Assembly: GCF_015500095.1 (NCBI RefSeq)
Contig: NZ_CP062983.1
Span: forward strand, 4,278,001-4,342,000
DNA length: 64,000 nt
Direction of reading: 5' to 3'
Source: Phototrophicus methaneseepsis
GTDB lineage: Bacteria; Chloroflexota; Anaerolineae; Aggregatilineales; Phototrophicaceae
The position numbers were made by a program, and so were the translations under genes. The notes under the pieces are model-generated. The model saw nothing but the letters and a program-made list of their open reading frames with translations. It had not been told where the DNA came from and searched no databases. Position 1 is the stretch's first letter; every line of letters starts with the position of its first letter. This document shows, piece after piece, positions 1,950 to 61,882 of the stretch.

Positions 1950-1972
1950 CATGTGAGATTGTATAGTAGCGA

Positions 1973-3603: not shown

Positions 3604-3850
3604 GTTTGACATATGATGTTTATTCTTTAGAAGCTCACGCTTTTTATGACGAATTTTTTCGTAAATACCCTTCAATCCCACATTCTACAGTTACCCTCCG
3701 CGGCACTTCGCAGCTGTTGGCAAGCATTTCATGCCGCTCATCCATCATTCAGGCAGGTTCCAACAAGTGCGTATCAGAGGCCAGGCTTGCCTATTGTCGC
3801 TGCTACGCTGACTTGAAAGATTTATTTGATTCATAGAAGGAGATAGGCTA

Positions 3851-4855: not shown

Positions 4856-4879
4856 GACACGATAAATCAGGAGGAGAAA

Positions 4880-6079: not shown

Positions 6080-6090
6080 CATTGATCTCA

Positions 6091-6114
6091 GGGGCATAGC
6101 TCAGGCTGTGCCCC
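6091..6114. terminator. Hairpin between convergent genes
   Basis: A 10-bp stem (one G-U pair) with loop TCAG sits in the 49-bp gap between the dehydrogenase and the minus-strand aminotransferase. It lacks a T-run, so it may act as a weak bidirectional terminator or 3' end stabiliser. Confidence 0.5.
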
Positions 6115-6128
6115 ACACCAGCGATAAC

Positions 6129-7208: not shown

Positions 7209-7456
7209 GGGTTTAAATCGCATCTACGAGCAAATAAAGGATGAACATCATAAAATGAAACATTAAAGGCCCTTATTTTAGTCTTAAGTCGATAACTTGT
7301 CTGTAGCTGTCTTGTTCAGAGTCGTTTTTTTAGAGTGGTCTTTACAGCAGTTGCGATGGCCTTTGCCTTGGTGGTATGCTTTGCCCTTGGTATCGTTCGT
7401 GATATCGCTTTCCCATCTACTTTGCCCATTTACTTTGACGTCACGCGGGACATCTT

Positions 7457-12951: not shown

Positions 12952-12996
12952 AAACAAAGCAGCAATGTAAAAACAGCGATACCGGAGAGGCAAACC

Positions 12997-13413
12997 ATGA
13001 ATATCGACGAAAAAGTCGCTCTCAGCTTTACGGAAATCAGCACACGGCTGCATACCATGGCTCTACCCGATGTTGATTGGGTCGTCGGGATTGCCACCGG
13101 GGGCACTGTCGCAGCGTGTATGCTCGCACACCAACTCAATAAACCCATGTCGCAGTTGTATATCAACTTTCGTGCGCCAGATAACAGTCCGCAACGCCCG
13201 CAACCTGAGTTGCTTTACCCGGCGGAATTGCCGCCTCAAGGAGCACGCGTCCTGCTCGTGGATGACGTCTGCGTTAGTGGGCGAACGATGGACGTCGCAA
13301 AAGAGATTCTGTCAGGCTACGACACAACCACATTTGTGCTCAAGGGCACCGCAGACTATGTTGCTTTTTCACAAATTCCGCAGTGCGTCCACTGGCCCTG
13401 GAAGCCCGAATAG
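12997..13413 (+). CDS. Phosphoribosyltransferase-fold protein
   Basis: A short type I PRTase. VLLVDDVCVSGRTM near residue 85 is the 13-residue PRPP-binding motif, and VGIATGG near residue 30 is the PPi loop. The base is not recognisable; short orphan PRTases like this often act as regulators or handle purines. A GGAGAGG ribosome site precedes the ATG. It lies 45 bp after panC and ends at a terminator, so it is the last gene of the operon and the last intact host gene before the element. Confidence 0.82.
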   Translation: MNIDEKVALSFTEISTRLHTMALPDVDWVVGIATGGTVAACMLAHQLNKPMSQLYINFRAPDNSPQRPQPELLYPAELPPQGARVLLVDDVCVSGRTMDVAKEILSGYDTTTFVLKGTADYVAFSQIPQCVHWPWKPE

Positions 13414-13910: not shown

Positions 13911-15101
13911 ATGACACGCAAGAAACGTGAAATTAACACCAGTTTATTGGATAGCGTCACTGCCGACATGCTCGGCGGTGACGACATTGACTTTTTTCAG
14001 GATGATACGCTGCGAGTAGAACGTATCCTGCTGGAGCTAGTACGTCCAGACCCTCTACAACCACGACGTGTATTGCCTGATCGTATCTATCAGGCATTTC
14101 ATGGAAATCGCATGACACCGACGCAGGCTTTACGCGACCTCATTCAAACAGCCCAGCTTGCGGCACGCCAACAGGGACGACCTTTTAATAATGTGCTGGA
14201 TTTGTTGGGCAATCCCGATGATGATGGTGAACAGGATTTGCCACCCCTATCTCCTGAAGAGCAGCTTGTTCATGATCTGGTCAATCTGGCAATTACGATC
14301 CGCGATGATGGACAAGTCAATCCCACGACTGTAGTAGATGTATCAGAAGGCGTGACACGCCAGTTCCGTATTGAAACTGGCGAAAGACGCTACTGGGCAA
14401 CGTGGTTATTGCGAGATTTCATCTCTGGTTATGAGAGCGATGGCATGATCCCATGCATTGTCATCCCACACGAATCTGCTTCCGCTTTCCGTCAGGCAAA
14501 AGAAAATACAGCCCGATCAGGTCTGTCCTCAATTGCTATGGCGCGACAAGTCGCTCTCTTGCTTCTTCAAATACATGGATATCCAATGCCTGATGGTGCA
14601 GTTGGCTATGATTTCTATCGTCAAGCATTGGATTTGGATTTAAGAGGCAAACGCGAGTTCACTACCCTTGTATTGTCATCTCTTGGTGGGCTACATAAAC
14701 GGCAACTTAGTCGGTATAAGTCGCTTCTGAAATTATGTGATGAGGCTCTTGAACTAGCAGATCGCCATAATCTTGACGAATCTCATTTGCGACTGATTCT
14801 TCATCTTGAACCAGCCGATCAAGTAGAGGTTCTTCGGCAATGTATAGCCTTCAATCTAACGCGCAAACAACTTCATGATCTACTTGAGAAGAATCATGAG
14901 GAAGATGATAAAGATGTTGAAAAACTCCCAAAGCATGTTATTCAATTGACCCGTATCATGAAAAATGGGAATATGCCTGACCCGTCAACAATTGCCCGTG
15001 CTTTGGTAAATCAAGAAGGTAATACAAATATCGCTCGCGCACGACTGCAAACATACGCCAGATTTTACAAGAAGCAGAGAATTATCTCGAAGATTAGGTA
15101 G
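13911..15101 (+). CDS. ParB/RepB-like partition protein
   Basis: ParB-type proteins bind centromere-like sites for plasmid segregation. VRPDPLQPRRVLPD near residue 47 is the start of the ParB nuclease-like domain. A conserved GERRYWATWLL (about residue 157) and an ENTARSGLS stretch (about 198) follow. A helical DNA-binding region with GLHKRQLSRYKSLL is near residue 260. The 396-residue protein carries an insertion of about 60 residues between the first two motifs. It directly follows the parA stub and is intact despite it. A terminator follows immediately. Confidence 0.82.
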   Translation: MTRKKREINTSLLDSVTADMLGGDDIDFFQDDTLRVERILLELVRPDPLQPRRVLPDRIYQAFHGNRMTPTQALRDLIQTAQLAARQQGRPFNNVLDLLGNPDDDGEQDLPPLSPEEQLVHDLVNLAITIRDDGQVNPTTVVDVSEGVTRQFRIETGERRYWATWLLRDFISGYESDGMIPCIVIPHESASAFRQAKENTARSGLSSIAMARQVALLLLQIHGYPMPDGAVGYDFYRQALDLDLRGKREFTTLVLSSLGGLHKRQLSRYKSLLKLCDEALELADRHNLDESHLRLILHLEPADQVEVLRQCIAFNLTRKQLHDLLEKNHEEDDKDVEKLPKHVIQLTRIMKNGNMPDPSTIARALVNQEGNTNIARARLQTYARFYKKQRIISKIR

Positions 15102-21771: not shown

Positions 21772-23429
21772 GGCTCTGGCTCGAATTTCGTGCTACTCAT
21801 GATTCGTAACAAACACGGATGCGCAGCAGATCCAAGTTAGCACGGCCATACATCTGTCGTTTGAGAAGTTTCAACCGATGCACTTGTCCTTCAGTTTGCC
21901 CATTGCTCCAATCAGTCGATAGCGCAGCCCGAACCGCGTCGTAGTCCTGCTGGAGGGATTGGGCAAAGAGCTGGCACGCTCGAATATCGCTTTTCGAACA
22001 GAACTTGAGCCAAGAATCGAATGGCTGAGCATCCCGTTGACGAATCATGCTAGCGAAATCCTGTATGAGCGTATAAAGCTGCTCCAACACGGGGATGTTC
22101 CGGAGAATACCCAACAGATATAAGTCATCATCGGTTAGTGATTCGGGCTATGCAACCAGCAAGCGCAAACATGTATCTCGTCCTGGCAGATGGGCTGTTG
22201 ATAGTGCGACTTCGACACGAGGCCGTTGTTTGTTGTAGCCTGTTACCCACTTGGAGACCTGACCATAGCTTCCAGGGTAACCCTGCTCAACAATCTCTTG
22301 CCACAGTTGCTTTGCTGTAACCTTACGAGTAGACATCTGCGTATTGAGATAATTCAGGTAGGGATCCAATTGGCTTGGGCGTGAAACGGTTTTGCGCTCT
22401 GGAAACTCATCTGTCTCGTAGAAACTGCGAACTTTTCCACGGCTGAAACCCAACAAACGGGCAATGCGTCTTTGACCATATCCCTTGTGTTTGAGATGTT
22501 GGATGATGCCATATTGTTTCAAGCGATGCTCACGACTGAGCTGCTTGGTTGTTTCATCGCCAAATGCACGCGGCAGCGGTGCTCTTTGAGCGCTTGGTAC
22601 GGTTTTTGCGGCGCGAACTTGTGTCCATTCGTCACGCAAAGCCCGTTGGGCCATTTCTGTCAGGTTTTTCAACAAGTGCCAACGATCTGCAACCTGAAGG
22701 GCTTGCGGTGCGCCCGCTGTAATGCCAATGGCATATTCTGTGGATCGATCACGGGTCACAATCGCCACTGTTGGATGTTGGTGAAGCCAATTGGCAAGAG
22801 TCTGTGCTTCGCGATCTGGCAGTAAATCAATGACACGATGATCTTCAAGATCCACCAGAATTGTCCCATAGGTCTGTCCACGTTTCTTTGCCCAGTCGTC
22901 GACACCCAAGATTCGCACCGGCTTCGTGACACTGGTATAGAGGTGACGAAGCATCCGAAGAATGCTATGACGGGACACCTGAATCCGCAGTTTGTGTGCG
23001 AACTGTGAGCCAGGACGCCCACCAACGACTTGTCCCACATGCCAGATAATCTCGGCTAACCGCTTGGTATATCGCGAATATCGCTCTGTTAGGTTTGGGA
23101 GTTTCTCAGCGAAGGTACGTCGTTCACATAATACGTCCATACAACGAAAACGTTTGACCTGAATCCGCAATCGAACAGCCAGTTCACCTAGCGGTAGGTC
23201 CAGCAACTGACGCTCGTAGTAGTTATGGATCCGCTGTGTTTTTGCACCACATGATGGACAGTACCCAAACCTTGATTGACTCTCGACACTTATGTGAACA
23301 CCATCGGGCGTGTGTTGCACCGATGTCACGGCACATCCTGGAATTCTCAGCTCATACTCCACTGCTCAACCTCCTGCCTTCAGCTAAAGCAGGATTGTGT
23401 CGTAACAGCACGAAATTCGCACCAGAGCC
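21772..23429 (-). mobile_element. ISL3-family insertion sequence
   Basis: Terminal inverted repeats of 23 bp at 21772-21794 and 23407-23429 match at 21 of 23 positions and begin GGCTCTGG. They enclose one ISL3-type transposase gene. ISL3 elements normally make 8-bp duplications; here the flanks are CCCAGAAT and AAGGGAGC, so none is present and one flank has been replaced. Confidence 0.9.
21797..23362 (-). pseudogene. ISL3-family transposase with an in-frame amber codon
   Basis: The N-terminal zinc-binding region (CPSCGAKTQRIHNYYER, then CMDVLCERRTF) precedes the DDE-type domain (GVDDWAKKRGQTYGTILVDL, VTRDRSTEYA, QVADRWHLLKNL). Translation stops at a TAG at 22148-22150, but the same frame continues with PESLTDDDLYLLGI and a normal C-terminus to 21797. 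The stop is therefore a single nonsense change in an otherwise complete gene of about 520 codons. Confidence 0.88.
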
Positions 23430-23668: not shown

Positions 23669-24583
23669 TTGCTCCTTGAACCAGTTCTTCAAATAAGCTC
23701 TTTGCAGACCTATGATGATGCCGAATTGCTCTACACACAATTGGCATCTATGAAACCAGTTAATGCACCCCTGAATTTGGACTGCCAACAACTTGTGTTT
23801 CTCCATGCGAGTTGTACCTTGGCACTTCTCACCATATCTAGGCTCTGGTTTCGCTGGACTGGCAAACCAACAATTCTCCATAACCTTGCCCCATCTGTCG
23901 ACGATCACATCCATCGCCTTCGACTTTTTGATCTTATTGGAGAAACCCTTCAACCTTTCCAACCTAAAAACAATGTCTTGGATACTTATAATCCGATCAG
24001 TGATAAGCAAATAATCCCTCAGTTTATACCAGGTCATCACCTTTCTAACGATTTGATCGCTGGTAAAGTTTTAGATGCTATTGGAGATAGTATTCGTCAC
24101 TGGTTTAACGATGAGCATTTATACCGTAATGTCTGGCGTATTGTTTCCGAACTAAGCGAGAATGTGGCACATAGTCAGGATTATGGTTACATCACACTTC
24201 AACACTATCACTACAAGAGTCAGAAAGATCCTCATGAGGTTGTGATTGCGATCAGCGATCTTGGTCAAGGAATTCGCGGTACTTTAAGCACGCGCTACTC
24301 AACGGAAGATATAAGTGATAGTGCTTGCATTTTGATGGCATTAAATCCGGGTATCACCCATACGTCTGAGGTTAGAGGTGCTGGATTAAATGAGGTACGA
24401 CGTATGGCGCTTGTAGGAGCGAAGGATGCTGAACTGCGAATTCGATCTGGTATGGGTTCAGTTGTGTTACATTCTGATGGGACACAACACACTAAAGATG
24501 ATCTAGCGGATATACCTGGAGTGCATGTTAATCTTAAATTGCGAGGAGGGGCTAGACAAAATCTAGGGCGCTGGGTACAATAG
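23669..24583 (+). CDS. GHKL (histidine-kinase-like) ATPase, anti-sigma-factor type
   Basis: The C-terminal half is a GHKL ATP-binding domain: N-box ELSENVAHS near residue 162, G1 box SDLGQGIRG near 197, and G2-like GAGLNEVRRMA near 238. There is no phospho-acceptor His domain. The N-terminal 110 residues have a STAS/NTD-like hydrophobic strand pattern. GHKL ATPases of this type typically switch a partner protein by binding or phosphorylation. The next gene encodes a STAS-like protein, the classic partner. The start is uncertain: TTG at 23669 has no strong ribosome site and the frame is open upstream to 23600, so the N-terminus may have been trimmed by recombination. Confidence 0.75.
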   Translation: MLLEPVLQISSLQTYDDAELLYTQLASMKPVNAPLNLDCQQLVFLHASCTLALLTISRLWFRWTGKPTILHNLAPSVDDHIHRLRLFDLIGETLQPFQPKNNVLDTYNPISDKQIIPQFIPGHHLSNDLIAGKVLDAIGDSIRHWFNDEHLYRNVWRIVSELSENVAHSQDYGYITLQHYHYKSQKDPHEVVIAISDLGQGIRGTLSTRYSTEDISDSACILMALNPGITHTSEVRGAGLNEVRRMALVGAKDAELRIRSGMGSVVLHSDGTQHTKDDLADIPGVHVNLKLRGGARQNLGRWVQ

Positions 24584-24616
24584 CAATATCAGCAAATTTT
24601 GTTGAGGTTAAGTAGA

Positions 24617-25195
24617 TTGTCCACTTTCAACTTCAAAGACATCGCAAAGCAGATTGGTGAAGCTCTGCCCGAACGCCTTCGTGGGCGTAAGCTTGGGCAA
24701 CGCTATTCGGCTGCACTACAAGCATATGTACGTGAGCAAGCCACAGTAGATATCTTAGAGTTTGATTTACATGACGCTCCGATGATGGATGTATCTTTCA
24801 TGGATGAAGTTTTTGGAGGATTCGCAGAGACCCGTGGACGTGGTGATCTTGCTGGATCAGCACTTTTGCTCATTCAACTTAGTGATTATGATCGGGATGA
24901 TATTGAACGTGTATTATCTGGTAGACCCGGTTATGTTGTTGGATTGAGAAACTGTGTGTTGCCTTACCGCAGTTCGAGTGGAATCGGTTTGTTGGGTAAG
25001 ACGGAGGACTATGTGGCTCAGACATTCGCCTTACTGCAAAAAAATGGTACTCTGACCACTGCGGATCTTATGGAACAACTTGATCTTGCTAATAACACGG
25101 CGAGTACGCGGTTAAAAGTTCTGTATGATCTAGGTCTAGCGCGGCGACAAAACCATTTAGGAAGTCGTGGATATGTTTATCTTGCCTTAGAATAG
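24617..25195 (+). CDS. STAS-like (DUF4325) protein with C-terminal winged helix
   Basis: Residues of about 10-110 match the STAS-like DUF4325 pattern: an N-terminal GRKLGQRYSAAL segment, then ILEFDLHDAPMMDVSFMDEVFG, the usual D-S-F core. The last 60 residues form a winged-helix domain (TLTTADLMEQLDLANNTAST, LYDLGLARRQ). It follows the GHKL ATPase gene by 33 bp, as in switch pairs. I chose TTG at 24617 because GAGG lies 9 nt before it; TTG at 24599 is an alternative. The winged helix suggests that the switch output is DNA binding, perhaps at the palindrome 34 bp downstream of this gene. Confidence 0.75.
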   Translation: MSTFNFKDIAKQIGEALPERLRGRKLGQRYSAALQAYVREQATVDILEFDLHDAPMMDVSFMDEVFGGFAETRGRGDLAGSALLLIQLSDYDRDDIERVLSGRPGYVVGLRNCVLPYRSSSGIGLLGKTEDYVAQTFALLQKNGTLTTADLMEQLDLANNTASTRLKVLYDLGLARRQNHLGSRGYVYLALE

Positions 25196-25228
25196 TCTTT
25201 TTTTGTCATCTATATCAACAAAATCTGT

Positions 25229-25240
25229 TGACAATTGTCA
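25229..25240. promoter_or_regulatory. Perfect 12-bp palindrome before the pPIWI-RE operon
   Basis: TGACAATTGTCA is a perfect palindrome overlapping a TTGACA box (25228-25233), 21 bp before the first gene of the pPIWI-RE island and right after the winged-helix gene. It is a candidate operator. A matching -10 box is not obvious. Confidence 0.45.
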
Positions 25241-25261: not shown

Positions 25262-26350
25262 ATGACAGATAAGCTTGATCAGATTCACCTATTATCTAAT
25301 CTAGCACGAGGTCTGGTATCAATCTACGATGCAGGTCTCAGTGGAAGCCAGATAAGGAGTCCATATCCGGCTTCATTAGAACGAGGAATGCATCAGCTCG
25401 CCGCACATCAGATTTCGATTGGAGTACCACCAATAGCTGGCTTACAGGATGTTTTTAATCTAGCTCGGCAACCACTTGGTACATGGGGATTGGAATTCGA
25501 TGAAACACTGATTGGAACAGGATCAGATGCTCTCATTGTACGAGACAAACCAACAGACATTTGCCTGGAATGGGCGAGTGAAGAGGATGCCGAAGCACTA
25601 TTCCAGTCTGAAATCATGCGTGAAGTCTTTGATTTATGCATTGAGCAGAATATCCCAGAGAGCTATATCGCTTTTCGCAAGTTACTGATTCAACGGCAAG
25701 TTCTAACCGCACTGGAGCGACAGCGTTTGAAACGACAACCGGAGTTGAAACCTCTACGCGACATTCTGATGCGTGCCTATCAACCCGCTCCTCGAAGTGC
25801 TGTTGAAGATGGGAATTACTGGCTATGCGCCCACTGTGGTGGACTCCTACTACGAGACCGGGATGGTTTCGCATGTGAAAACATGCGCTGTGCAGGCTCT
25901 GGGCGTGGTGAAGCCTTATCCGCTGATAATGATGTTTTGTGGTTGGAAGGAGGACTTCGCCGCTATATTTCGCGACCAGGACTTCCAGAAATCACACTTC
26001 AGGAAGAACTGAAGTCCTTGGGTCTGAACGTCACTCTTTGGCCAGCATTCGATGCGTACGATCTTCACTTTGCCGTAAATGACAAGGTTTGGGCAGTTGA
26101 TGTCAAGGATTGGTCGAATCCTTATCTGTTAGGCTCGAAGCTGGCAAAAAAGGTAATTCCTGCTCCTCAAAATTGGGTCTGGGATCGTGCCTTTTACGTT
26201 TTTCCAGATGATCGCGCTAGCGAGCAACGAGATTACTTACGTGCTTTCAAGAGTCGATGGCAAGCTCCATCACGAACAATAGCGTTGATGATGTCCGATT
26301 TCATTGACTTGGTGAAACGTGAAATTAAGAAGGGGCGACAAAATGCGTAA
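25262..26350 (+). CDS. Restriction-type endonuclease of the pPIWI-RE island
   Basis: A 362-residue protein with a treble-clef-like zinc ribbon near residue 188 (CAHCGG, then CENMRC) and a C-terminal PD-(D/E)xK nuclease core: an acidic YDLHFAVND strand followed by WAVDVKDW near residue 278. It matches the nuclease that accompanies pPIWI-RE proteins by architecture and position. A GAGGA ribosome site sits 9 nt before the ATG. It overlaps the helicase gene by 8 nt. Intact. Cleavage of invading nucleic acid is the expected role, not shown here. Confidence 0.82.
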   Translation: MTDKLDQIHLLSNLARGLVSIYDAGLSGSQIRSPYPASLERGMHQLAAHQISIGVPPIAGLQDVFNLARQPLGTWGLEFDETLIGTGSDALIVRDKPTDICLEWASEEDAEALFQSEIMREVFDLCIEQNIPESYIAFRKLLIQRQVLTALERQRLKRQPELKPLRDILMRAYQPAPRSAVEDGNYWLCAHCGGLLLRDRDGFACENMRCAGSGRGEALSADNDVLWLEGGLRRYISRPGLPEITLQEELKSLGLNVTLWPAFDAYDLHFAVNDKVWAVDVKDWSNPYLLGSKLAKKVIPAPQNWVWDRAFYVFPDDRASEQRDYLRAFKSRWQAPSRTIALMMSDFIDLVKREIKKGRQNA

Positions 26351-29300
26351 CATCAAGAGCTGGCACAAAACGCTTGTAAAGGCTATTGAACCAGCATGGA
26401 ATGAGGCATCAAAGGGGATGGCAACCCGACTTTGTGAAATTGAGTTAGGGTTATATGTTGTAGAGACCCTTCTTCCAAATGAACCCCCTACTGCACTCTG
26501 GGGACTACTAACTGGTTATCAATTTAGCGCACATCATGATCATGGATGGACAGATGATGAATTGCGAATGCGTGCTATTGCACGGCATCTATTACCATAC
26601 TATCGTGGAGCCTACGCATGGGAAACAGCACTTGAACAGTACATGATGTTCCCCGAATTTGTGCGTGGTTACACCATAGAAGAGAGTGGCTTACAACGCA
26701 CAAGCGAGCTACATATTGCACCAGACCGCTTTGACCACTATGAAGCTACGCTGACAAATGCACCGGCTCTAAGTACGCGGACATTGCGTTGGGCTGATCC
26801 TGGAGACTACGTTTTTGAAGTTGGGAATCGTGTCTACGATGTGTCAATACCAAACGACTGGGTGAGAACACCCCCAAAAGGTCATGACCTAATACCGAAA
26901 CCAATGCGCTCCCCACTCCATGTTCAATGGAATGCATTACTTGATACAGCCCAATGGATGGATGAACAGATTCCCAATGGTGGCTACGTCAGTCGTATGG
27001 AAAAAGTCAAATTAGAACTGTGGAATGGCTATGAGATGCAGCTTGCTGATGCTCTGACAGTAAAGGGGATGCTTCATCTTGCTGGAATGGTTAGTGCAGG
27101 GAAGTCTACTTTGATGGAAGTGTTAACCGTGTGGGCAGTTCGTCAAGAAAAGCCATTACATGTGACGCTGGTGCTTGGAGATGTTATTAGCGTGTTGGAG
27201 TGGGCATCACGTTTCGAGTGTTTTGGACTGCGAGTTGCACCAGTTATTGGTGGATACAGCCGAGAAACACACCTTAATCGTCTTCATCGTCTTCAGGCTG
27301 ATCAACATCCAGAACAACCATTGGCATTGACTCACCCAGGTTTCCGATGGTTAGGAACAGCATGTGCCTTGAACGGTAGCAGGCATCCGACGGTCCGCTT
27401 ATCACCAAAGCAGTTACCCTGTAATCGCTTGCGTCGGGCTGAAGATCTTGATAAAGAGCACAGCACTTTCTATGCCTGTCCACTTTATGAACGGTGTGGG
27501 GTTCACACAGCGGCACGTGATCTTCAACAAGCACAGATCTGGATAGCAACACCTGCCAGCCTGGTCTACACACGTGTACCTTCTCAACTTAATGCAGTCT
27601 CGATGCGCATGGGGGAACTTGTATCACGCCACAGCGATCTTGTACTGGTGGATGAAGTGGATCGTGTTCAGACTCAACTCGATAACACCTTTAGTCCGAG
27701 TGAGGTGCTTGCTGGATCAGGTGGAGAGCCGTGGTTACATCAGTTAGATCAGGCAGTACAAATACAAATTCGCCAGCGCGGACGCAGTAGTCTTGGTTTA
27801 GTCGATGTCGAAGCTTGGCTTACAGTACAACGTAATGTGCAACTCGCCACTGACAAACTTTATGTGCTGTTCATGCAAAAGGATGCCAACTTGGGTGCAT
27901 CATCGGACTATTTTACCGGATGGACTCTTTGGGAGGGTCTCACAACCGATATTCTAGCATTAAACGGGTTATCCGTTACCCAGAAAAACAATAATCCTGA
28001 CTACAAGCGCGAGATACAAACATTCAACCTCTGGGTTCGTGATCCATTTGGATTGAACAGTTCTGAGCCTGATGTCAGTATTTTGCAGGAAAGAACTCGT
28101 GCTCTCTTGACTGAACAAAGAATGGAGACGGTTTATCCCAGTCTTGAAGCAGAACTTCGTCGCCGTTTCAATTATATATCGGCAGATGATGTCATGTGGA
28201 AAGCATGGTCACAACGACTGGCTTTCGCGCTGCTTGCAGGGATGTTAAGTTGGGGTGTTGATGAGTTAACGCAAAACTGGGATAACGTCAAAGAACCACT
28301 GGATCTGGGGGAAGGTAACCGGGCACTCTTCTTTAACCCACCTAGTGACTACGATGTTGGCATTCCTGCGGCACCAATGGGGAATGTACTCGCCTTTCAG
28401 TACAGTCCTGCATCGGATTCGAGTGAGGCGGGTGTACTGCGGTTCTTCCGCGTCGCTGGTGTTGGGAGAGCATGGCTTCTCAATCTCCATCAACTCTTCG
28501 CTGACGAAGGAAGTCCCGGACCGAATGTCATCTTGCTATCTGGCACATCGTGGGCAGGAGACTCTCCGTTATATCATGTCCAGTATCCCATTGAAGGTGT
28601 ACTCCATGCATCTGAGAAAACTGTTGCCGCAATTGCTGAAGGCAGTCGATTCCGCTATGAACCTGTCGTTGACGCGAAAACAGGTAAGGCTGTTTTTGTG
28701 AGTGGTACTCAGGGAGCACGCAGGGCAACGGCATTTGATCAGCTTGTTGCTCATTTTACACGACGCCGTGGTCCATCAGGCGATGCGCCCAGTCGATTTG
28801 AAGAGGAGCGGGACAGATTGGAGGCTGGTCGTCAACGCATTATGATCTTGGTTGGGAGCTATGCAGAAGCTGAAACGGTTCGACTGATCATTGTTCGCAA
28901 CCGTCCCGATTGGGATGGAGAGGTCATCAATCTAGTACGTGATGATGATGACCCTAGTGCTCATTGGACGGCGGGCAATGGTACGCTACAACGCGGTCAG
29001 GTCAGTCGATTTGCCAAAACAAACGGTTGGATATTGGTCGCCCCGTTACTTGCGGTTGAACGTGGTCATAACATTCTCAATGATGACAACCAGGCAGCGA
29101 TTGGTGCGGCGTACTTCTGGGTTCGCCCTCATCCACGACCTGATGATTTGACATTACCTGTAGCTGCGGTCAATTCTTGGGCGATTGACCATAATGGTGG
29201 CAATTTTGGTGAGACAGTCGAAGTTGCTTCTAGTGCCTTTCGTCAGCAGGCTTATGCTCACTGGCGTTCTTGGCTGAGATTACCCTGGATCTACAGTACC

Positions 29301-29615
29301 CTGCCCGAGGAAGAACGTAGTATGGTGACATGGACGCAATTGGTAACAATCTGGCAAGTTATTGGACGTTTGGTTCGTGGGGGTAGTCCCGCGCGTGTTT
29401 ACTTCGTAGATGCTGCCTTTGGAAGCCATTTCACACTTCCGGATGAAGAAACTGGCGAACGGCAGCAAGTTCAGGGTGGTTTACTTGCCGAGATGCATAA
29501 ACTGCTCTCTCCTTACTTTGAGAACGATAGCACCCTTGATTCACGTACACTCATACTGGTTCGCACACTTTATGGTCCATTTTATGAAGCCCTTAAGAAG
29601 ATAGGAGATGTCTAG
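26343..29615 (+). CDS. DinG/XPD-like helicase of the pPIWI-RE island
   Basis: A 1090-residue superfamily 2 helicase. Walker A is MVSAGKST near residue 252, the DEAH-type box is VLVDEVDRVQ near 434, and motif VI is IWQVIGRLVRGG near 1003. Between A and B, Cys residues in LPCNRL, FYACPLYERCGVH may hold an iron-sulfur cluster as in XPD/DinG enzymes. The N-terminal 230 residues match no common helicase domain I know and may be an island-specific module. I chose ATG 26343 because AAGGGG precedes it; the preceding gene overlaps. The next gene starts 2 bp after its stop. Intact. Confidence 0.85.
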   Translation: MRNIKSWHKTLVKAIEPAWNEASKGMATRLCEIELGLYVVETLLPNEPPTALWGLLTGYQFSAHHDHGWTDDELRMRAIARHLLPYYRGAYAWETALEQYMMFPEFVRGYTIEESGLQRTSELHIAPDRFDHYEATLTNAPALSTRTLRWADPGDYVFEVGNRVYDVSIPNDWVRTPPKGHDLIPKPMRSPLHVQWNALLDTAQWMDEQIPNGGYVSRMEKVKLELWNGYEMQLADALTVKGMLHLAGMVSAGKSTLMEVLTVWAVRQEKPLHVTLVLGDVISVLEWASRFECFGLRVAPVIGGYSRETHLNRLHRLQADQHPEQPLALTHPGFRWLGTACALNGSRHPTVRLSPKQLPCNRLRRAEDLDKEHSTFYACPLYERCGVHTAARDLQQAQIWIATPASLVYTRVPSQLNAVSMRMGELVSRHSDLVLVDEVDRVQTQLDNTFSPSEVLAGSGGEPWLHQLDQAVQIQIRQRGRSSLGLVDVEAWLTVQRNVQLATDKLYVLFMQKDANLGASSDYFTGWTLWEGLTTDILALNGLSVTQKNNNPDYKREIQTFNLWVRDPFGLNSSEPDVSILQERTRALLTEQRMETVYPSLEAELRRRFNYISADDVMWKAWSQRLAFALLAGMLSWGVDELTQNWDNVKEPLDLGEGNRALFFNPPSDYDVGIPAAPMGNVLAFQYSPASDSSEAGVLRFFRVAGVGRAWLLNLHQLFADEGSPGPNVILLSGTSWAGDSPLYHVQYPIEGVLHASEKTVAAIAEGSRFRYEPVVDAKTGKAVFVSGTQGARRATAFDQLVAHFTRRRGPSGDAPSRFEEERDRLEAGRQRIMILVGSYAEAETVRLIIVRNRPDWDGEVINLVRDDDDPSAHWTAGNGTLQRGQVSRFAKTNGWILVAPLLAVERGHNILNDDNQAAIGAAYFWVRPHPRPDDLTLPVAAVNSWAIDHNGGNFGETVEVASSAFRQQAYAHWRSWLRLPWIYSTLPEEERSMVTWTQLVTIWQVIGRLVRGGSPARVYFVDAAFGSHFTLPDEETGERQQVQGGLLAEMHKLLSPYFENDSTLDSRTLILVRTLYGPFYEALKKIGDV

Positions 29616-29617
29616 TT

Positions 29618-32290
29618 ATGGGAAATGCATACCTTTCCATTCAACCACTCGCTTTTACACTAAATGTGGATGCACCAGATTTAGTTATGCACCATTACTC
29701 GTTAAGTTTGCCGCTTGATTATAAACAGGCGCTTAAACGAGCCTACGCACGCAAACTGGGACGTAAACCAGAAGAAGTTAATCTACCTGTTGCTGATCTT
29801 AACCGACTAGTGCGACTACTTCTGCCTGATGTCTACAGTATTAGTAGTGGAGCAGGGAACACAAATCCTGATTGGGATTCTGTCTGGCTACGCGCAGCAC
29901 AAGAAATCGACCTAGAGTCTGTAAAGACGATTCTCGACGAATGGGCAAATGTGCATAATATGGGTAGCGTTGATGTGCCAGAAAACCTCACATGGAAAAA
30001 TGATACAGTCCAGCTTGGACATTGGGAAACATCAAAAAATGGCACTGCTAGAGCTGTAAATGGTGCGGTCTATGATTTACTACCTGCACTTCTAGCTAGA
30101 CGTGTTGAGGGACAAGAAATTCTTCTGGGTGAGACAATCCCGATTCGTTTCTATCGTGTACCACAGGATCCATTCCGTAAGGGTATTGAGTTGCTGAGTT
30201 GGCCTCCATTACCAATGCCGTATGGAAAGAATGGGCAAGTTGCTTACTACAGCTTTAGATTAGTAATCACCGTCGCTCTTGTTCCATTTGACGCACAACC
30301 GCGTGTATATGTGAGAGTCGGGCTAAGACGTTGGGTTTCCGGTAAGTTTAAGCGTCCAGGACGACAGCGAATAAGCTTATATCTTCGTGCTGAAATGCCT
30401 GGTCTAAAGGGACAATCAGGTGAGAGTGCCTTTCAAGTGGCATTTGCGCGGAATAAACGGGAACAAGATCCCAAGAATAATGAGGAATTGATCAACCACC
30501 TGTATTGGGATTATAAGGAGAACATCCCTGATTTATTGGAAAAGTTAGGAGTTGAGGATGGGATTATCCCATCTCCAGAGGATGTTGCGGAAACCCCAAT
30601 AAATTTTCTGATGGGAGATCAACCTCCCAATATTGCTATGTCCTACAGTACACGCATGGGGTCACATCCAGTCAACCCTGGGGTTACACCCAATGATCGG
30701 ATGCAATTGCTAAATCAATTGGGAACGCATTGGGATGACTTGTTGACGGTTGCACCGCGTTTTAAACGATCAAAAGGACTTGCAAATAATGACCTCTATT
30801 TCGCCAATCCCAAAAAAGGAGAAACACCTGCGTATCATGGGCGTTGGCTACGAATCGCACAGCAGTTCGATGGTCAGACCATACGAATTGAGATTCACTA
30901 CCGTACAGAACTCAGCCGAAATCAAATGTTATCTGCCCTTGCTAATTTGCTGGAGATTGATGCTCAGGAGGGCAACTATGAAAAGCATGGTGTCACATTG
31001 CAAGTTGTGGCTTATGAAACAGGTAACCTTAGTCGAGAACTCGCTATAACCAAACAGAAACAGGAAGCGGTTGACCAGCGACGTAATGAAGTTGTTAGCG
31101 TGCTTGGTGAAGTATCACTACCCACAGTGGCTTTAGTCGAGATTCTTGATAAACCGAACAATGGTAAAGCGGATGTGCCAGCGTATCCTTCTGGACGTGA
31201 CCCAAAGCAGGCCCTACGCGCAGGATTTGCTGATAGTGGTCGACTCACCCAGTTCTTTTTGTTTGAACCTGAGAAAACCTTTCCAGAAGGAAAGACAGAA
31301 AAAGAGCAGAAGAAAATTGCTAAACAAAAACAGAAAGCTGAAGATAGCCGACTGGCACGTTATCAAAATGCAGTGCTGGACGCATTACGCCAGATGGGTG
31401 TGCATGATGGTGGAACAAAGAGTCATAATGCATGGAATCTAACACCTTGGGGAGGCATGTCTGCGGCAGGTTTCTACGTCGCCTATCAGACTGGAAAGAC
31501 CAGTGTAAAACGGGCAAAACGTTGCCTTCCCGTGTTGACGTATATTGACGGGTTTAACGGGCAAGTATTGGCATGGGTACCTGGCATGGAAAGTATGTTG
31601 CCTTATCATCAGGTACTGGTGCAATTAGGGCAGGGGAAACTCACCGCGTTTGAAAAGCCCGATCAGGTCGCTCAACTCGTACATCCTGTGATTGAGGAAT
31701 ACCTGAGCAACCGCGATGTACTTCTTGCCGTTCACACATCCGAAGGACATATGCGAAATAGAGTATGGCCATGGCTCCAGGATGGCAGAATACAATTAGA
31801 TGAAATTCACTTTGCGGGTCATAGTCCTTGGCGTGTTGAAGATTCTGATATGCCAGGATTGCGTGTTGTGAGGGTTCGAGATTTGAAGGATCAGGGAGAA
31901 GTACCTGAATGGTATGCCCCTGATGGTAAGGGGGATGCGGGTCTAACAGATGGATTGTGGAAGGTCACCGAACGGGTTTTCGGTAGTATTGCCACCCGTG
32001 CCAGCTCACAACAGTATCCGTATAAAGGCAAGAGCAAGGCTTCTCCAGATTTTGCAGACAAGAACACACCCATGCCTGTGTTTCATGAATTGACAGTCGC
32101 CTACGCTCAACCAGAAGATCAAATAGCTGATCTTGCTGCGATTGTCCACAGTCTACGAGAAGCAAGCGTACAATCCAGAGATGAGACCTCACACACGCTA
32201 CCACTACATTTTGCACAGCGAGTAAAGGAGTATCTGCTATGGGAGGAGGAGGACGCGTTACCCGATGAGGAAAGTGAGGAGGACGAATAG
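29618..32290 (+). CDS. pPIWI-RE protein (Argonaute-related)
   Basis: An 890-residue protein with the features of the pPIWI-RE family, which are relatives of Argonaute/PIWI proteins. The N-terminal half is family-specific. A MID-like region near residues 405-460 (IRIEIHYRTELSRNQML) and an RNase H-like PIWI region from about residue 600 follow, with LTYIDGFNGQVLAWVPGM (about 641), VLLAVHTSEGHMRNRVW (about 702) and GLRVVRVRDLKD (about 747). Family members are predicted to bind guide nucleic acid and act with the helicase and nuclease encoded upstream. Whether the catalytic residues are retained cannot be judged by eye. It is intact and lies at the end of the three-gene operon. Confidence 0.85.
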   Translation: MGNAYLSIQPLAFTLNVDAPDLVMHHYSLSLPLDYKQALKRAYARKLGRKPEEVNLPVADLNRLVRLLLPDVYSISSGAGNTNPDWDSVWLRAAQEIDLESVKTILDEWANVHNMGSVDVPENLTWKNDTVQLGHWETSKNGTARAVNGAVYDLLPALLARRVEGQEILLGETIPIRFYRVPQDPFRKGIELLSWPPLPMPYGKNGQVAYYSFRLVITVALVPFDAQPRVYVRVGLRRWVSGKFKRPGRQRISLYLRAEMPGLKGQSGESAFQVAFARNKREQDPKNNEELINHLYWDYKENIPDLLEKLGVEDGIIPSPEDVAETPINFLMGDQPPNIAMSYSTRMGSHPVNPGVTPNDRMQLLNQLGTHWDDLLTVAPRFKRSKGLANNDLYFANPKKGETPAYHGRWLRIAQQFDGQTIRIEIHYRTELSRNQMLSALANLLEIDAQEGNYEKHGVTLQVVAYETGNLSRELAITKQKQEAVDQRRNEVVSVLGEVSLPTVALVEILDKPNNGKADVPAYPSGRDPKQALRAGFADSGRLTQFFLFEPEKTFPEGKTEKEQKKIAKQKQKAEDSRLARYQNAVLDALRQMGVHDGGTKSHNAWNLTPWGGMSAAGFYVAYQTGKTSVKRAKRCLPVLTYIDGFNGQVLAWVPGMESMLPYHQVLVQLGQGKLTAFEKPDQVAQLVHPVIEEYLSNRDVLLAVHTSEGHMRNRVWPWLQDGRIQLDEIHFAGHSPWRVEDSDMPGLRVVRVRDLKDQGEVPEWYAPDGKGDAGLTDGLWKVTERVFGSIATRASSQQYPYKGKSKASPDFADKNTPMPVFHELTVAYAQPEDQIADLAAIVHSLREASVQSRDETSHTLPLHFAQRVKEYLLWEEEDALPDEESEEDE

Positions 32291-33086: not shown

Positions 33087-33979
33087 ATGAATGAAATCAC
33101 GATCTACACAGATGGTTCTTGGCAGACACAAACACGGATTGGTAGTTGGGCAGTTGTCTTACGCTGCGGAGAGCATCGCAAAGTGCTAAGTGACAGTGTC
33201 GCAGAACAACGGTCAATGCAATGGAATTGACGGCAGTGGTGAACGGGCTGAAAGCACTCAAAACAGTGAGCCAGACTGTCACTATTTACACAGACTCGAA
33301 GTATGTCGCACGCGGTGTCAATGAATGGCTTCCAGACTGGCTAGCGCGTGGGTGGCAGACTGCTTCCAAAAAGCCAGTCGCTAATCGCGATCTATGGGAA
33401 GCAGTTCAGGCTTTACTTCAAATCCATACAGTCACGGTGAAGTGGATTCCCCGTTACCAGAATGCGGAAGCAGATGGACTGGCGCAGGAAGCACGTCTCA
33501 ATCACGGCATGACACCAATGACCAAACCGACACAGCAAACGACACATCTCATGATCGCAGGTAGTCGGGATGCCACAGCACAAATGCTGGATTATGCCAG
33601 GCGAGCAGTACGTCGCGCTCATGAAAAAGGCTTCGCTATTCTGGTTGGAGACAATCCGAAGGGTGTGGACATGGTGGTTGTTCGTGAATGTCGTCGCTTG
33701 CAGATACCGGTGATCGTCGCAGGGGTCGGCAACTTTCCACGCAATGGGGAATGCAAACACGGCACATATGTCAAAGTGCATCGGGATACGTATCGTGCAT
33801 CGGGTGGACATCTGCTTCACCGCTACACAGTGAGGGATCGCTGGATGGTCGATCAGGCTCAGATGGGTCTCTTCGTGTGGAATGGCGATAGTCCTGGTAC
33901 AAAAGCTGGTTACAATTATGCAACCCAACGTGGCAAAGATGCTCATCTCATCAATTTCAGTGCGGAGGTCGGATCATGA
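33087..33979 (+). pseudogene. RNase HI fused to a SLOG-like domain, frameshifted
   Basis: The first frame (33087-33230) begins MNEITIYTDGSWQT. A missing base near 33,200 shifts the rest, which reads TTVNAMELTAVVNGLKAL, IYTDSKYVARGVNEWL and NAEADGLAQEA. All four RNase H acidic residues (YTDG, MELT, TDSK, EADG) are present across the two frames. From about codon 150 a Rossmann-like SLOG domain follows (HLMIAGSRDATAQML, VGDNPKGVDMVVVREC). RNase H removes RNA from RNA-DNA hybrids; the SLOG part may bind a nucleotide. A strong GGAGG precedes the ATG. An internal ATG (33221) could give a fragment without the first Asp. Confidence 0.78.
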
Positions 33980-51978: not shown

Positions 51979-53982
51979 ATGCTGTATTGGTTATTCACAG
52001 ATGGACGCGGATTTCTCAGCAGCCTGATTACACCACTTCTATGCTTGAGTTTATTCATGCCACTCTTCGTCAGTGCAATAATAGGTGCAGGTATCCAGCG
52101 CAGCAGCCAAGTAACGGGCGATTCAGGTTGGAAGCACACAGCTAAGTGGGTGACAATCGCTACCGTGTTGTTAGCGGTGACAACCGTTTATCTCATGCTC
52201 GTGAGTGATATGGCAATCCAACCTATACGTGGAAAATCAACAGCGAACAGCTTTATTCGCCTGCTGGTCGGTGGACCCGAAAACATCCATCATATGCGGT
52301 TGTTCATGTTTGGCATGATGCTGGGTTTCCTCTGGATGATTGTCACAATCGGCTTGCAGAGTGGTCTGAAAAATGGTGGTTGGCTACGTGAACGGGTAGA
52401 TCGTCTAAGGACACCACGTGTGAAACGTGGCGCATTGGGTTCATCCCACTTTTGCAGCCAGTGCGAATACAAACGCTTTCGTCGAGAAGATCCCGAAGGT
52501 TTGATCCTGCTCGGTGCGTTCTGGGGTGAAAACAAACAGCGACTTGATCTGGGAACAGGACGTTTCTGCCTGGGTGGAGAGGATATTGCACGCGGTATCC
52601 TGACGTTAGGTGGTCCGGGCTCCGGTAAGACACAGGGAATTATCCTGCCTGCCATTGCTGATCGTATGTTGTCTGGGCATTCACTGGTGGTTGCCGATCC
52701 ACAGGGTGAAATTACCGCTCATGTTTTGAAATATGCGGCTGTTACCCGTCATCTAGTCGTCGTTCATGATCCCACATCAACCATTGGTCCGCGCTATAAC
52801 CTCGCTGAGGGAATTGATAACGTATCGGATGCCCGCGCCATTGCCGATGTGCTTGTACCATCCGCACAGGGTGATAACAAGTTCTGGACAGATAGTGCCG
52901 CCGCATTGCTAGCTGCCTGTCTGATTCGCTTTCCCAATCTTGGCGAAATCTACAATGCCATGAATGACCTCAAGGCACTGGCGCAGAAACTTGCTGAGAA
53001 AAAAGACGATGCTGCACTGCTGGCAAATAGCTTCATCGCTTCTGTGGGTTCAGATGGCAAAGTGGCATCCAATGTGGTGGCAACCTTAGCGACTGCTCTC
53101 ACCGGATGGGCTTCTACCGAAGTGCGTGACAACACGGCTGCTTCTGACTTCGATGCTGAGTTGATTGTCGAACAGCCAACAGTTGTTGTATTGACCTATC
53201 CGGGTAGGATGCGAGCGGTGTATGCCTCCTATCTTGGTGCAACTCTCCGTAAAGTGATGCTTGATCTGGATACCATTGGTGAACGCAACAAAGGCCCCCT
53301 CCCGATGCCTGTTGGTGTCATCCTCGATGAGTTCCCTACACTTGGCAAGCTGGATTCGCTGGTTGCCGATGTCAATCTTGTGCGTAAACGTCGCATTTCC
53401 ATTTTGATTGGCGCACAGACCAAAGGGCAGTTCCACATGATTTATGGCAGTGAAGGCACACAGGCATTGTTCACAGGTCTAGCGACGCAGGTGATTTATG
53501 GTGGTTGCGATGCCGATACCACCGAGTTTTATAGCAAGGCAAGTGGAACAGCAACTACCGATGCTAACGCCGATGATCCCAATAGCCATCTGCGTCAGCG
53601 CCCATTGCTAACTGTCGATGAAGTGATTACACCACAAGTCGGTAACTGCACCATCTTCGCACGGTACGTCGAGGCAGGATTTGCCACACAGGTTGTCTTG
53701 AATGCACGACTGACTCGTTTCTATGAACGGCAGGACTGGAAACAGCATCTCAAAGCAGGTGAGAGTACCACCCCATTGCTCTTGGAACGTGGAATATCTC
53801 TCAAGATTGAACCACTACCCTTACACCAAGAGGAAGTAAAGCGAGACAAACTACGTGAAGCTGCTCAATCTGCAATGGACAAAGCGGTTGAACACGCTGG
53901 CAATGTGCAGTTCACAGGCTTATCAACCATGCGCCGTAATTTTGAAGAACGGAAGGAACTGATGGAGGTCATAGAAACATGA
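51979..53982 (+). CDS. Type IV coupling protein (VirD4/TraG family)
   Basis: 667 residues. Three or four N-terminal membrane helices (to about residue 125) are followed by the ATPase. Walker A is LGGPGSGKTQG near residue 214, then VVADPQGE, and Walker B is VILDEFPTLGKLDSL near 450. QTKGQFHMIYG near 478 is also conserved. T4CPs recruit the relaxase-DNA complex to the secretion channel. Intact, preceded by GGAGAG, and overlaps the HU gene by 4 nt. Confidence 0.9.
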   Translation: MLYWLFTDGRGFLSSLITPLLCLSLFMPLFVSAIIGAGIQRSSQVTGDSGWKHTAKWVTIATVLLAVTTVYLMLVSDMAIQPIRGKSTANSFIRLLVGGPENIHHMRLFMFGMMLGFLWMIVTIGLQSGLKNGGWLRERVDRLRTPRVKRGALGSSHFCSQCEYKRFRREDPEGLILLGAFWGENKQRLDLGTGRFCLGGEDIARGILTLGGPGSGKTQGIILPAIADRMLSGHSLVVADPQGEITAHVLKYAAVTRHLVVVHDPTSTIGPRYNLAEGIDNVSDARAIADVLVPSAQGDNKFWTDSAAALLAACLIRFPNLGEIYNAMNDLKALAQKLAEKKDDAALLANSFIASVGSDGKVASNVVATLATALTGWASTEVRDNTAASDFDAELIVEQPTVVVLTYPGRMRAVYASYLGATLRKVMLDLDTIGERNKGPLPMPVGVILDEFPTLGKLDSLVADVNLVRKRRISILIGAQTKGQFHMIYGSEGTQALFTGLATQVIYGGCDADTTEFYSKASGTATTDANADDPNSHLRQRPLLTVDEVITPQVGNCTIFARYVEAGFATQVVLNARLTRFYERQDWKQHLKAGESTTPLLLERGISLKIEPLPLHQEEVKRDKLREAAQSAMDKAVEHAGNVQFTGLSTMRRNFEERKELMEVIET

Positions 53983-60025: not shown

Positions 60026-61882
60026 CTAGTCCTCCACTGGATGCAAGACGAGCGGTTTGTGTTCGACATTGCGGGTATAACTACATTTGGGATAAGCCGA
60101 GCAGCCCACAAATGCCCCGTTAGAACCCTGCCGTTCGACCAGATCAGCACCACAGTCAGGGCAAGTTTCACCAATCGGCTTTGCCTGTGGTCGTGCCTTC
60201 ATCTGTGTGAGTGTGTATTCCGTCGCGGATTTCAACTGCGGCTGAAAACCACGCCAGAACGCCGTGAGCAAATCACTGCGGCTCAGGTCATCGTTTGCTA
60301 CGCGATCCAGTGCCGTTTCAAGGCGGGCAGTGTATGCCACATCAAAGACCTACGGGAAGCGTTCCACCACAAAATCATTGAGTTGCAAACCTGTGTCAGT
60401 CGGTTGTAGCCGTTTCTGCTTAAGCGCGACATATTTTTTATCCTTGATCACTTTCAGCATGGAAGCAAAGGTCGATGGACGACCTACGCCCACAGCTTCC
60501 AGTTTTTGCACCAGTGCCGCTTCACTGAAACGGGCAGGTGGACGGGTTTGTCCTTCATCAATCGGCAGTTCGACCAGATGGAGTGTTTGCCCGTCTTTGA
60601 GTGCAGGGACTGCACCACTATCTTCAGCTTCGCTCTCATCCACATCGTCGGGTTCTTCATAGACACGCAGGAAACCATCAAAGTCCAGTTCACGCCCCTG
60701 TGCCTTGAAGATCAAAGGAAAGGGTTTTTCCACTGTTTTGCCCGCATGGATCAACGCAGCAGTGACGGTGTAACGGGCAGGAGCCATCTGCGATGCGACA
60801 AAACGTTTCCAGATCAGGGCATAAAGTTTCGCGGCATCACCATCGTTATCTTCAGGCAACTGCGAAACATCCGTCGGACGAATTGCCTCATGTGCTTCCT
60901 GTGCATTGGCTGTTTTGGTTTTATAGACAGGTGGTGTTTCAGGCAGATACTCTGTGCCATATTCCTTCAAAATCAGCAAACCAGCTGCTTCTTGCGCCTC
61001 CAGCGCGACAGATACACCGTCAGTACGGTGATAGGTAATCCGACCCTGTTCATAGAGGGTCTGGGCAAGCTGCATGGTCTTTTCAGGTGAGAGTCCCAAT
61101 CCCTTTGCCGTCGCCTGTTGCAAAGACGAGGTAGTGAAAGGTGGCAGAGGATTCCGCAGTTTGAGCGTTTGTCCTGCCTTATTGACCCAGAAACTCGCAG
61201 ATTGAAGCAAACCAACGAGTTTCTCTGCCTGTTCACGCGCATTGAATTTGACATCTGCATCTTTGAGACGGTGCAACTTCGCTTCAAAACGACTGCCAGC
61301 CGCTTCCAGAACCGCTTTTAGCGTCCAGAAACTTTCTACCTTGAATGCGTTCACGCTCGACCACCAGACGCAGAGCAACACTCTGTACCCGTCCTGCCGA
61401 TAAACGCTCATTGAGTGCTTTACATGCGAGTGGCGAGACCAGATAACCGACCAGTCGATCCACAATACGACGCACAGACTGTGCTTCGACCAGTGACTGA
61501 TCCAGCGTGCGTGGTTCTGCAAGTGCTGTTTTGACCGCAGTTTCGGTGATGGCATTGAATGCTGAACGATAGACAGGTTTATCGTTGAGATTGCCTGCTA
61601 GTGCCAGCAAGTGCCAGGCAATGGCTTCACCCTCACGATCTGGATCGGTTGCCAGATAGACAGCATCTGCCTCCCGAATGGCTTTGACCAGTTTCTTGAC
61701 CAGATTCCCTTTGCCTGCCACATCTGATACTGTGGACGGAAATCCGCATCAATATCCACGCCCAGTTCACTTTCGGGTAAATCACGGATATGACCGCGAC
61801 AGGCTTCGACCTGCCAGCCTTCACCGAGAAAGTGGGCAATTTTCTTCGCTTTCGCGGGCGATTCTACGACTATGAGTTTCAT
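60026..61882 (-). pseudogene. topA: Type IA DNA topoisomerase I, three frameshifts
   Basis: All domains occur in order over three frame changes. TOPRIM: MKLIVVESPAKAKKIAHFLG, then LATDPDREGEAIAWH after a shift at about 61,735. VGYLVSPLACKALN and SAGRVQSVALRLV follow. A shift near 61,330 leads to ESFWTLKAVLEA. The active-site Tyr is in GRITYHRTDG, then AHEAIRPTD and VGRPSTFASML. A shift near 60,345 leads to a C-terminal zinc finger (CPDCGADLVERQG). Plasmid topoisomerases of this kind assist transfer or replication. It cannot be functional as it stands. Confidence 0.88.

Follow-up and report, generated by a model that had tools for sequence, protein, structure and literature searches.

A CapK/CapS-like gene pair stands ahead of a pPIWI-RE island on a decaying chloroflexote element

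The pPIWI-RE three-gene island was predicted in 2013 by Burroughs, Iyer and Aravind (PMC3702460). The experimental study of the family found among the matches listed in our literature search concerns P. stutzeri, in which PsPIWI-RE uses RNA guides to cleave DNA and DNA guides to cleave RNA, needs D525 and D610, and, when its gene is deleted, leaves cells sensitive to ciprofloxacin (PMC10991935). A further candidate source on the family, PMC7641849, was set aside because its retrieved passages speak only of "Piwi-related" proteins. CapK is a kinase with helix-turn-helix (HTH), STAS and GHKL domains that is activated by single-stranded DNA, and CapS is a repressor with STAS and winged HTH (wHTH) domains (Chambers et al. 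2026, PMC13373217). Phosphorylation of one serine breaks the CapS dimer and derepresses the operon; W68 of CapK stacks on single-stranded DNA, deletion of the CapK HTH is without effect, and DNA damage induces a reporter (PMC13373217). The operon behind capKS is known or predicted to be an immune one in 348 of 443 cases, and the published list includes MBL, Bil and Bub operons (PMC13373217). Here we describe the window, a stretch of 64,000 nucleotides of the chloroflexote Phototrophicus methaneseepsis (contig NZ_CP062983.1, positions 4,278,001 to 4,342,000 of the forward strand), in which a pPIWI-RE trio directly follows two genes resembling capK and capS. We consider it reasonably probable that these five genes form a stress-inducible version of pPIWI-RE, carried as cargo on a decaying, probably conjugative chloroflexote element.

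Judged by its sequence, the region 25262-32290 is the published three-gene pPIWI-RE island. The first gene (25262..26350, + strand) encodes a 362-residue REase protein with domain Y (residues 11-149), a zinc ribbon (Cys189-210) and a PD-(D/E)xK REase domain (residues 240-359). The second (26343..29615, + strand) encodes a DinG/XPD-type helicase with domain Z; its frame is open from a GTG at 26319 (1,098 residues), and the likely start is the Met at 26343 that is common to homologues and overlaps the REase stop. The third (29618..32290, + strand) encodes an 890-residue PIWI protein with X, MID and RNaseH/PIWI domains. All three frames are open and run in the same direction, and the order REase, DinG, PIWI with tight spacing is that published in 2013 (PMC3702460). 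A search with PF13032 found a single copy of the island in the genome (5.63 Mb, one contig).

Profile searches agreed with this assignment. Pfam matches above the curated cut-offs were obtained for the REase protein (PF18156 pPIWI_RE_Y, 2.5e-20; PF18154 pPIWI_RE_REase, 2.2e-29), the helicase (PF18155 pPIWI_RE_Z, 6.1e-38) and the PIWI protein (PF13111 X, 8.7e-56; PF18157 MID, 1.5e-18; PF13032 RNaseH, 4.7e-37), and PADLOC assigned PprRE (1.4e-55), PprDinG (3.6e-207) and PprPIWI (1.5e-115). The initial annotation had read these genes, from the letters alone, as a zinc-ribbon PD-(D/E)xK nuclease, a DinG/XPD-like helicase and an Argonaute-related pPIWI-RE protein; the pPIWI-RE, REase and DinG profiles bear this out, and its description of the trio as a predicted Argonaute-related defense system agrees with the family literature (PMC3702460). 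The helicase retains G256, G261-K262-S263, D445-E-x-D448, Q1013, G1016-R1017 and R1020, together with Cys 349, 368, 387 and 393 of its cysteine-rich region. In an alignment of the window protein with 10 homologues, these motifs and the four cysteines were invariant in all 11 sequences, apart from the nearly invariant S263. Cys189/192/205/210 and D280-x-K282 of the REase protein were likewise invariant in 11 aligned sequences. The residues listed for both proteins are the functional motifs of such enzymes.

Immediately upstream lie a capK-like gene (23669..24583, + strand) and a capS-like gene (24599..25195, + strand), with gaps of 15 bp between the two and 66 bp between the capS-like and REase genes. 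The capK-like product (304 residues) has an N-terminal STAS-like region and a C-terminal GHKL ATPase/kinase domain, and its length leaves no room for an HTH ahead of the STAS-like region. It keeps the N-box Asn165, D197-x-G199-x-G201 and G237-x-G239, and Asn165 and the glycine boxes are invariant in 12 aligned sequences. As a single sequence it scored below the Pfam cut-offs (STAS_2, 0.027; HATPase_c, 0.095), and homologues from other loci scored better with HATPase_c (5.8e-4 for L044 and 3e-7 for L141). A profile of nine capK-like sequences searched against the PDB matched sensor kinases (2.8e-4), the anti-sigma factor antagonist TM1442 (0.0066) and anti-sigma F factor (0.19), and no CapK was among the 24 entries listed.

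The capS-like product (198 residues) combines a DUF4325/STAS-like domain with a wHTH. Searched singly, it matched HTH_24 above the Pfam cut-off (1.3e-5) and DUF4325 below it (0.003). A profile of the four island-associated CapS-like proteins (from the window, L044, L140 and L144) matched PDB entries 9z72 (9.9e-16) and 9z71 (1.1e-12) over both domains, with the next entry only at 2.9e-4; the two entries are CapS structures (PMC13373217). A profile of nine homologues gave E. roggenkampii CapS (9z71, 1.5e-15) and V. cholerae CapS (9z72, 1.4e-14), with Escherichia VapS (9z7o, 3.8e-4) behind two other HTH proteins (3.5e-6 and 3.7e-4). Ser66 is invariant in 10 aligned sequences and stands at the phospho-serine position of CapS, as placed by a hand count that allowed for a two-residue tag in both chains. 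One CapS-like alignment includes an open reading frame from L148 picked by position and not by phmmer. These matches suggest that 23669-24583 and 24599-25195 resemble the CapK/CapS kinase-repressor pair. The initial annotation covered only the trio; the functional unit very probably takes in the CapK/CapS-like pair as well and so begins 1.6 kb further upstream. The gap between the capS-like and REase genes holds a candidate operator palindrome, TCAACA-N5-TGTTGA (25215..25231, without strand), which occurs once in the window against 0.22 expected; the word was picked after being seen, so this count is weak, and neither the palindrome nor a promoter scan was convincing.

The arrangement was found again at other loci. 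Hidden Markov model searches of 105 loci with island parts found the pair at 5 (the window, L044, L140, L142 and L144), and in all 5 the capS-like gene lies within about 225 bp of the REase gene. Because L140, L142 and L144 entered the set through the kinase search, the count without them is 2 of 102, and the number of loci truly tested is smaller than 105: the REase was found in 98, some loci have too little upstream sequence and at least four are duplicates. L142, from the same genome as L140, ends at a contig end after the REase gene. L044 was reached by the helicase search and L140, L142 and L144 by the kinase-only search, that is, three other genomes by two routes. The kinase-only search matched 10 of 396 genomes of the class at 11 places. 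Ten of these places were foreign; 7 had an adjoining CapS-like gene (phmmer), at 3 the pPIWI-RE REase gene followed, and at 2 the whole trio was present, with the PIWI confirmed by Pfam at both. In this class sample the kinase occurred in 10 genomes, the PIWI RNaseH domain in 7 and both in 3, against 0.18 expected (calculated by hand). The chance of such an overlap is 4e-4, or 0.007 when the window's own genome is left out, in a post hoc test that ignores adjacency.

Several observations weigh against the reading of the five genes as one unit and favor an ordinary three-gene pPIWI-RE island whose upstream pair is an unrelated regulator adjoining by chance. Most pPIWI-RE loci examined lack the pair, and three of the five that have it were found through the pair itself. 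The capS profile matched 17 genomes of the phylum sample, and the 12 other genomes with a trio are not among them (samples equated by genome labels, with at most 8 candidates scored per genome); the association is therefore confined to some lineages. Pairs also precede genes other than pPIWI-RE: at L146 and on the Nostoc plasmid L162 the pair is followed by an MBL-like gene and an E1/E2/JAB protein, and no recognized system was found behind the pairs of L186 and L187, where three and one neighbors were scanned. Also against the five-gene reading, at the protein level, the STAS domain of the CapK-like protein has weak scores with STAS_2 and, by profile, with TM1442; its structure model (predicted local distance difference test score [pLDDT] 40, two sequences) was too poor and was not used; Trp occupies the columns of its W60 and W63 in 3 and 2 of 12 aligned sequences, and CapK W68 could not be mapped. 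The CapS-like protein of the window taken alone matched CapS in the PDB at only 0.52, over residues 120-191. The chance-neighbor explanation nevertheless has to accommodate the recurrence in three other genomes by two routes, with the capS-like gene each time close to the REase gene, and the overlap of kinase and PIWI in the class sample, and we regard it as unlikely.

The surroundings of pairs elsewhere were varied. In the phylum sample the capS profile matched 18 foreign places, and 7 of these were fetched for their neighborhoods; in a cyanobacterial sample, weak or partial capS matches were obtained in 22 of 329 genomes (best, 4.3e-7). At L141 (1172-16001) a CapK-like domain is fused behind NACHT and EAD7 domains and is followed by a CapS-like gene and then by genes that include a DruF match (1.7e-58). 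A BilD-like protein (1.2e-30) is encoded about 1.9 kb beyond the CapK/CapS-like pair of L188 (2446-7555). The pair of L192 (2407-6472) is followed by a helicase matching ZorD/DpdE models (2.9e-48), which are broad models. At L139 (5403-12779) a helicase, DdmD-like over a short stretch, and a 777-residue protein follow the pair; DdmDE was considered there and rejected, since the helicase matches DdmD over only about 82 residues and the 777-residue protein has no meaningful match.

How the pair came to stand beside pPIWI-RE was examined in a helicase tree of 98 sequences. Four loci at which no pair was found make up, with L144, a five-tip clade (support 1.0). L044 belongs to a seven-tip clade (0.948) that also contains L043/L015 (one locus present twice), L045, L046, L047 and L048; no pair was found at L043/L015, L045, L046 or L047, and L048 is too short to tell. 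The remaining branchings among the window, L140 and L044 have low support (0.44-0.65). The CapS-like proteins of L144, L141 and L146 share 54% mutual identity and 24-27% identity with that of the window, and those of L141 and L146 precede other defense-like genes. At least two recruitments of the pair, or repeated losses, are needed to explain this distribution. Since the helicases belong to separate clades and the CapS-like protein of L144 is nearer to those of L141 and L146 than to that of the window, the pair was probably recruited to pPIWI-RE more than once.

The trio itself is patchily distributed. In the phylum sample, 13 of 400 genomes had the PIWI RNaseH domain; domain Z was found in 2 of 41 near relatives (the window's own genome and G402) and not in the one genome of the same genus. 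Among 72,556 plasmid records, 25 had a helicase match, 12 of them over at least 80% of the helicase, and 6 had a PIWI match; 50,697 phage records gave no helicase match. A scan of genome contigs with the window PIWI alone gave no relative, and a scan with a helicase alignment gave 193, of which the best 80 were kept, including relatives in cyanobacteria, actinobacteria, Bacteroidota and Chloroflexota. A role of the trio in DNA repair or replication termination rather than defense, with damage induction through the pair, would suit the P. stutzeri knockout, which is ciprofloxacin-sensitive and filamentous under the drug and for which the authors propose a role in replication and division (PMC10991935), and would also suit the response of CapK/CapS to DNA damage (PMC13373217). 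The patchy distribution, the absence from the same-genus genome and the presence on plasmids and on this element fit mobile defense better than housekeeping, and we think this alternative distinctly unlikely.

Variants of the island were seen in these scans. At 28 actinobacterial loci (L059, L062, L067, L069, L070, L074, L076, L081-L085, L088-L090, L092, L093, L096, L097, L099, L101, L103-L105, L116, L118, L119 and L121), a homologous gene of about 510-740 residues overlaps or abuts the start of the REase gene, and both members scanned (L104 and L081) are PD-(D/E)XK nucleases (PF12705). This is possibly a fourth gene of the pPIWI-RE island, one not named in the relevant section of the 2013 paper (PMC3702460). 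A 537-residue gene abuts the REase start at a chloroflexote locus (L017:13773-15383); Pfam gave no match to it at 0.01, and it is not linked to the actinobacterial cluster. At L166 (2547-3506) the position just upstream of a broken pPIWI-RE trio is taken by a separate regulator of a different kind, of the WYL/WCX HTH type. Near the end of one viral-classed contig (L123, IMGVR_UViG_3300012932_000186) lie genes for a pPIWI-RE REase and helicase (29% identity).

The PIWI protein keeps the signature residues of the family. In an alignment of 94 sequences, Arg534 is present in all 94, Arg749 and Arg754 in 93 each, and Glu824 in 92, the other two being gaps. This alignment comprises the window protein, 91 of the 96 loci with a PIWI match (at least 650 residues), L140 and L144; at least four loci are present in duplicate and counted twice (L015/L043, L016/L054, L019/L049 and L022/L050). 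The published conserved Arg corresponds to either Arg749 or Arg754, both of which are kept. The initial annotation had named this Arg/Glu signature and a structure prediction as checks, and both came out in its favor. An AlphaFold2 model built from 36 sequences (pLDDT 85; predicted template modeling score, 0.89) had an Argonaute fold. The 50 Foldseek matches listed were all Argonaute/PIWI entries, with template modeling scores of 0.35-0.42 of the query and whole-length root-mean-square deviations (rmsd) of 11-17. In VIA-align, the Argonautes of T. thermophilus (5xow) and M. piezophila (5ux0) both gave a Z score of 14.5 (rmsd 4.4-4.5 over 466-494 residues). A PIWI family profile gave no match to PDB sequences up to an E value of 1. 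As modeled, the protein is Argonaute-like by domains and not as one rigid body.

The catalytic site differs. Val621 and His706 of the window protein stand at the two catalytic Asp positions, with a spacing of 85. Both Asp residues are present in 1 of the 94 sequences (L125), the second only in 14 and neither in 79. In L125, the Cupriavidus homologue, Asp stands at columns 621 and 706, with the same 85-residue spacing as D525-D610 of PsPIWI-RE; the placement of the catalytic columns rests on this spacing and on predicted strands, the P. stutzeri sequence itself being absent from the alignment. Asp644, which had been considered as the first catalytic Asp, was dropped because the predicted strands and the L125 spacing put the site at column 621. 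By these residues the window PIWI is probably not a nuclease, and with both catalytic Asp positions replaced it is probably a guide or hybrid binder, the REase being the likely nuclease. Of 78 strongly conserved columns, the protein departs from the family residue at 9 (median, 3; 15th of 94), and beside the second catalytic site it has a two-residue insertion seen in no other of the 94. The helicase deviates at 16 of 193 conserved columns (median, 5; 20th of 98) and the REase at 5 of 38 (median, 2; 20th of 95).

The carrier was compared with G760:C234, a related Anaerolineae contig of 71,479 bases. A ParB-like gene (13911..15101, + strand; PF17762, 5.5e-5) shares 59% identity with its counterpart there, an intact type IV secretion system coupling protein of the TraG/TraD type (51979..53982, + strand; PF02534, 2.5e-33) shares 75%, and other backbone genes share up to 87%. 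The related contig carries the same five-gene block at the lower identity of 30-42%. Since the coupling protein is present, the carrier is probably conjugative. Of 17 backbone genes shared with the related contig, 12 lie wholly or partly in the window and the rest in the right flank. Frame changes or in-frame stops clearly break 7 of the 17 here, versus 0 of 5 block genes; the count rises to 9 if a gene with an in-frame deletion and another with a stop a few codons short of its end are added. An example is the gene at 60032..61882 (- strand), with in-frame TAG codons at 60352 and 61600. The decaying mobile element that the initial annotation had recognized is thus confirmed. One-sided Fisher tests for 7, 8 or 9 of 17 against 0 of 5 gave 0.114, 0.076 and 0.049, and 6 broken of the 11 backbone genes wholly in the window gave 0.058; a Poisson estimate gave 0.003-0.02 at an assumed 10-15 lesions, which were not counted exactly. 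The difference between broken backbone and intact block is of borderline significance. General sequencing error is unlikely, as the genes to the left (106-13413) are long open frames.

The "full integrity" claimed for the island thus holds for the reading frames but not for the nuclease site of the PIWI, and "active retention" draws weak support from the Fisher values. That the block is a relic, leaving with its carrier and with a PIWI already dead as a nuclease and diverging, would account for the lost aspartates, the PIWI deviations and unique insertion, the somewhat raised deviation of helicase and REase, and the broken backbone genes, but is very doubtful given that loss of both Asp residues is usual in the family, that all five frames are open with REase and helicase motifs intact, and that the deviations rank only 15th and 20th.

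Further features of the element were noted. Four of its six in-frame stops are TAG; recoding of TAG was considered and dropped because the capK-like (HATPase), capS-like (DUF4325), DinG and PIWI genes end in TAG and because ARAGORN, run on the window, its two 20-kb flanks and G760:C234, detected no tRNA gene. The same-genus genome G400 was searched for an empty site, and neither a clean one nor an element border was found; genes of the left flank are mostly on contig C23 and those of the right flank mostly on C1, and the right-flank genes are element backbone, which explains the result. Upstream of the block, an ISL3-type transposase gene (21797-23362, - strand) is in two pieces, the second (21797-22114) judged by eye. 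A gene at 33221-33979 encodes an RNase H domain and a weak DprA-like region; a longer protein of the related element is 63% identical to its product, and the start of the gene has been lost to a frame change at 33206. A 1,331-residue element protein (37180-41175) with DUF6094 methyltransferase and helicase domains may be a further defense or anti-defense gene.

By analogy with the published systems, we infer that the five-gene block is induced by DNA damage and acts in defense. In quiet cells, the STAS-wHTH repressor would hold a promoter between the capS-like and REase genes. Single-stranded DNA arising from phage, plasmid or repair would activate the STAS-GHKL kinase, leading to phosphorylation of Ser66; the repressor dimer would come apart, and REase, helicase and PIWI would be made. 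The PIWI, without its catalytic Asp residues, might then bind a short guide or a DNA-RNA hybrid and mark foreign DNA, the DinG helicase might open the marked DNA or translocate on it, acting on R-loops as in the 2013 model, and the REase would cut it. Damage-induced derepression is proposed because of the published CapK/CapS mechanism, and the guide or hybrid, R-loop and cutting steps because of the 2013 model. We regard as evenly poised the broader proposition that in several chloroflexote lineages pPIWI-RE is DNA-damage-induced, with CapK/CapS-type switches, recruited repeatedly, holding back a guide-binding but nuclease-dead PIWI, its helicase and its REase until single-stranded DNA appears.

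What is new here is the CapK/CapS-like regulatory pair ahead of a known but little-understood family. Among the matches listed, no report of CapK/CapS together with pPIWI-RE was found in the open-license literature (supplements excluded); the CapK/CapS sections consulted name neither pPIWI-RE nor Druantia, and "piwi" and "argonaute" have no occurrences in the main text (PMC13373217). The upstream pair suggests when a pPIWI-RE system switches on, and extends CapK/CapS-like pairs to an Argonaute-related system. A damage-sensing switch would offer a concrete, cheap way to ask when pPIWI-RE is on, the reporter format having been published for CapK/CapS. The ciprofloxacin sensitivity in P. stutzeri fits a damage-linked role without demonstrating defense; if pPIWI-RE is indeed damage-induced, this one knockout phenotype found for the family would be tied to its control.

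Compared with the 2013 island, the window has the same domains and gene order and overlapping or tight spacing, with R and E kept and the catalytic residues of the family variable (PMC3702460); it adds a separate two-gene kinase-repressor pair, whereas the family section of that paper names only HTH regulators fused to the REase. Like PsPIWI-RE, the window protein belongs to the family and has a DinG and a nuclease gene adjoining (PMC10991935), but the equivalents of D525 and D610 are Val621 and His706. The probable STAS-GHKL layout of the kinase, without an HTH, is common to the window and the VapKSC toxin-antitoxin system; in VapS, however, the STAS domain is followed by no more than a short C-terminal region, and the protein inhibits the VapC toxin (PMC13373217), whereas the window partner carries a wHTH and is not followed by a PIN gene. 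CapK/CapS differs in the N-terminal HTH of the published kinase, absent here, and the window pair precedes pPIWI-RE. As in CapK/CapS, a STAS-wHTH gene comes directly after the kinase gene and both lie ahead of predicted immune genes, and the phospho-serine and the kinase Asn are kept.

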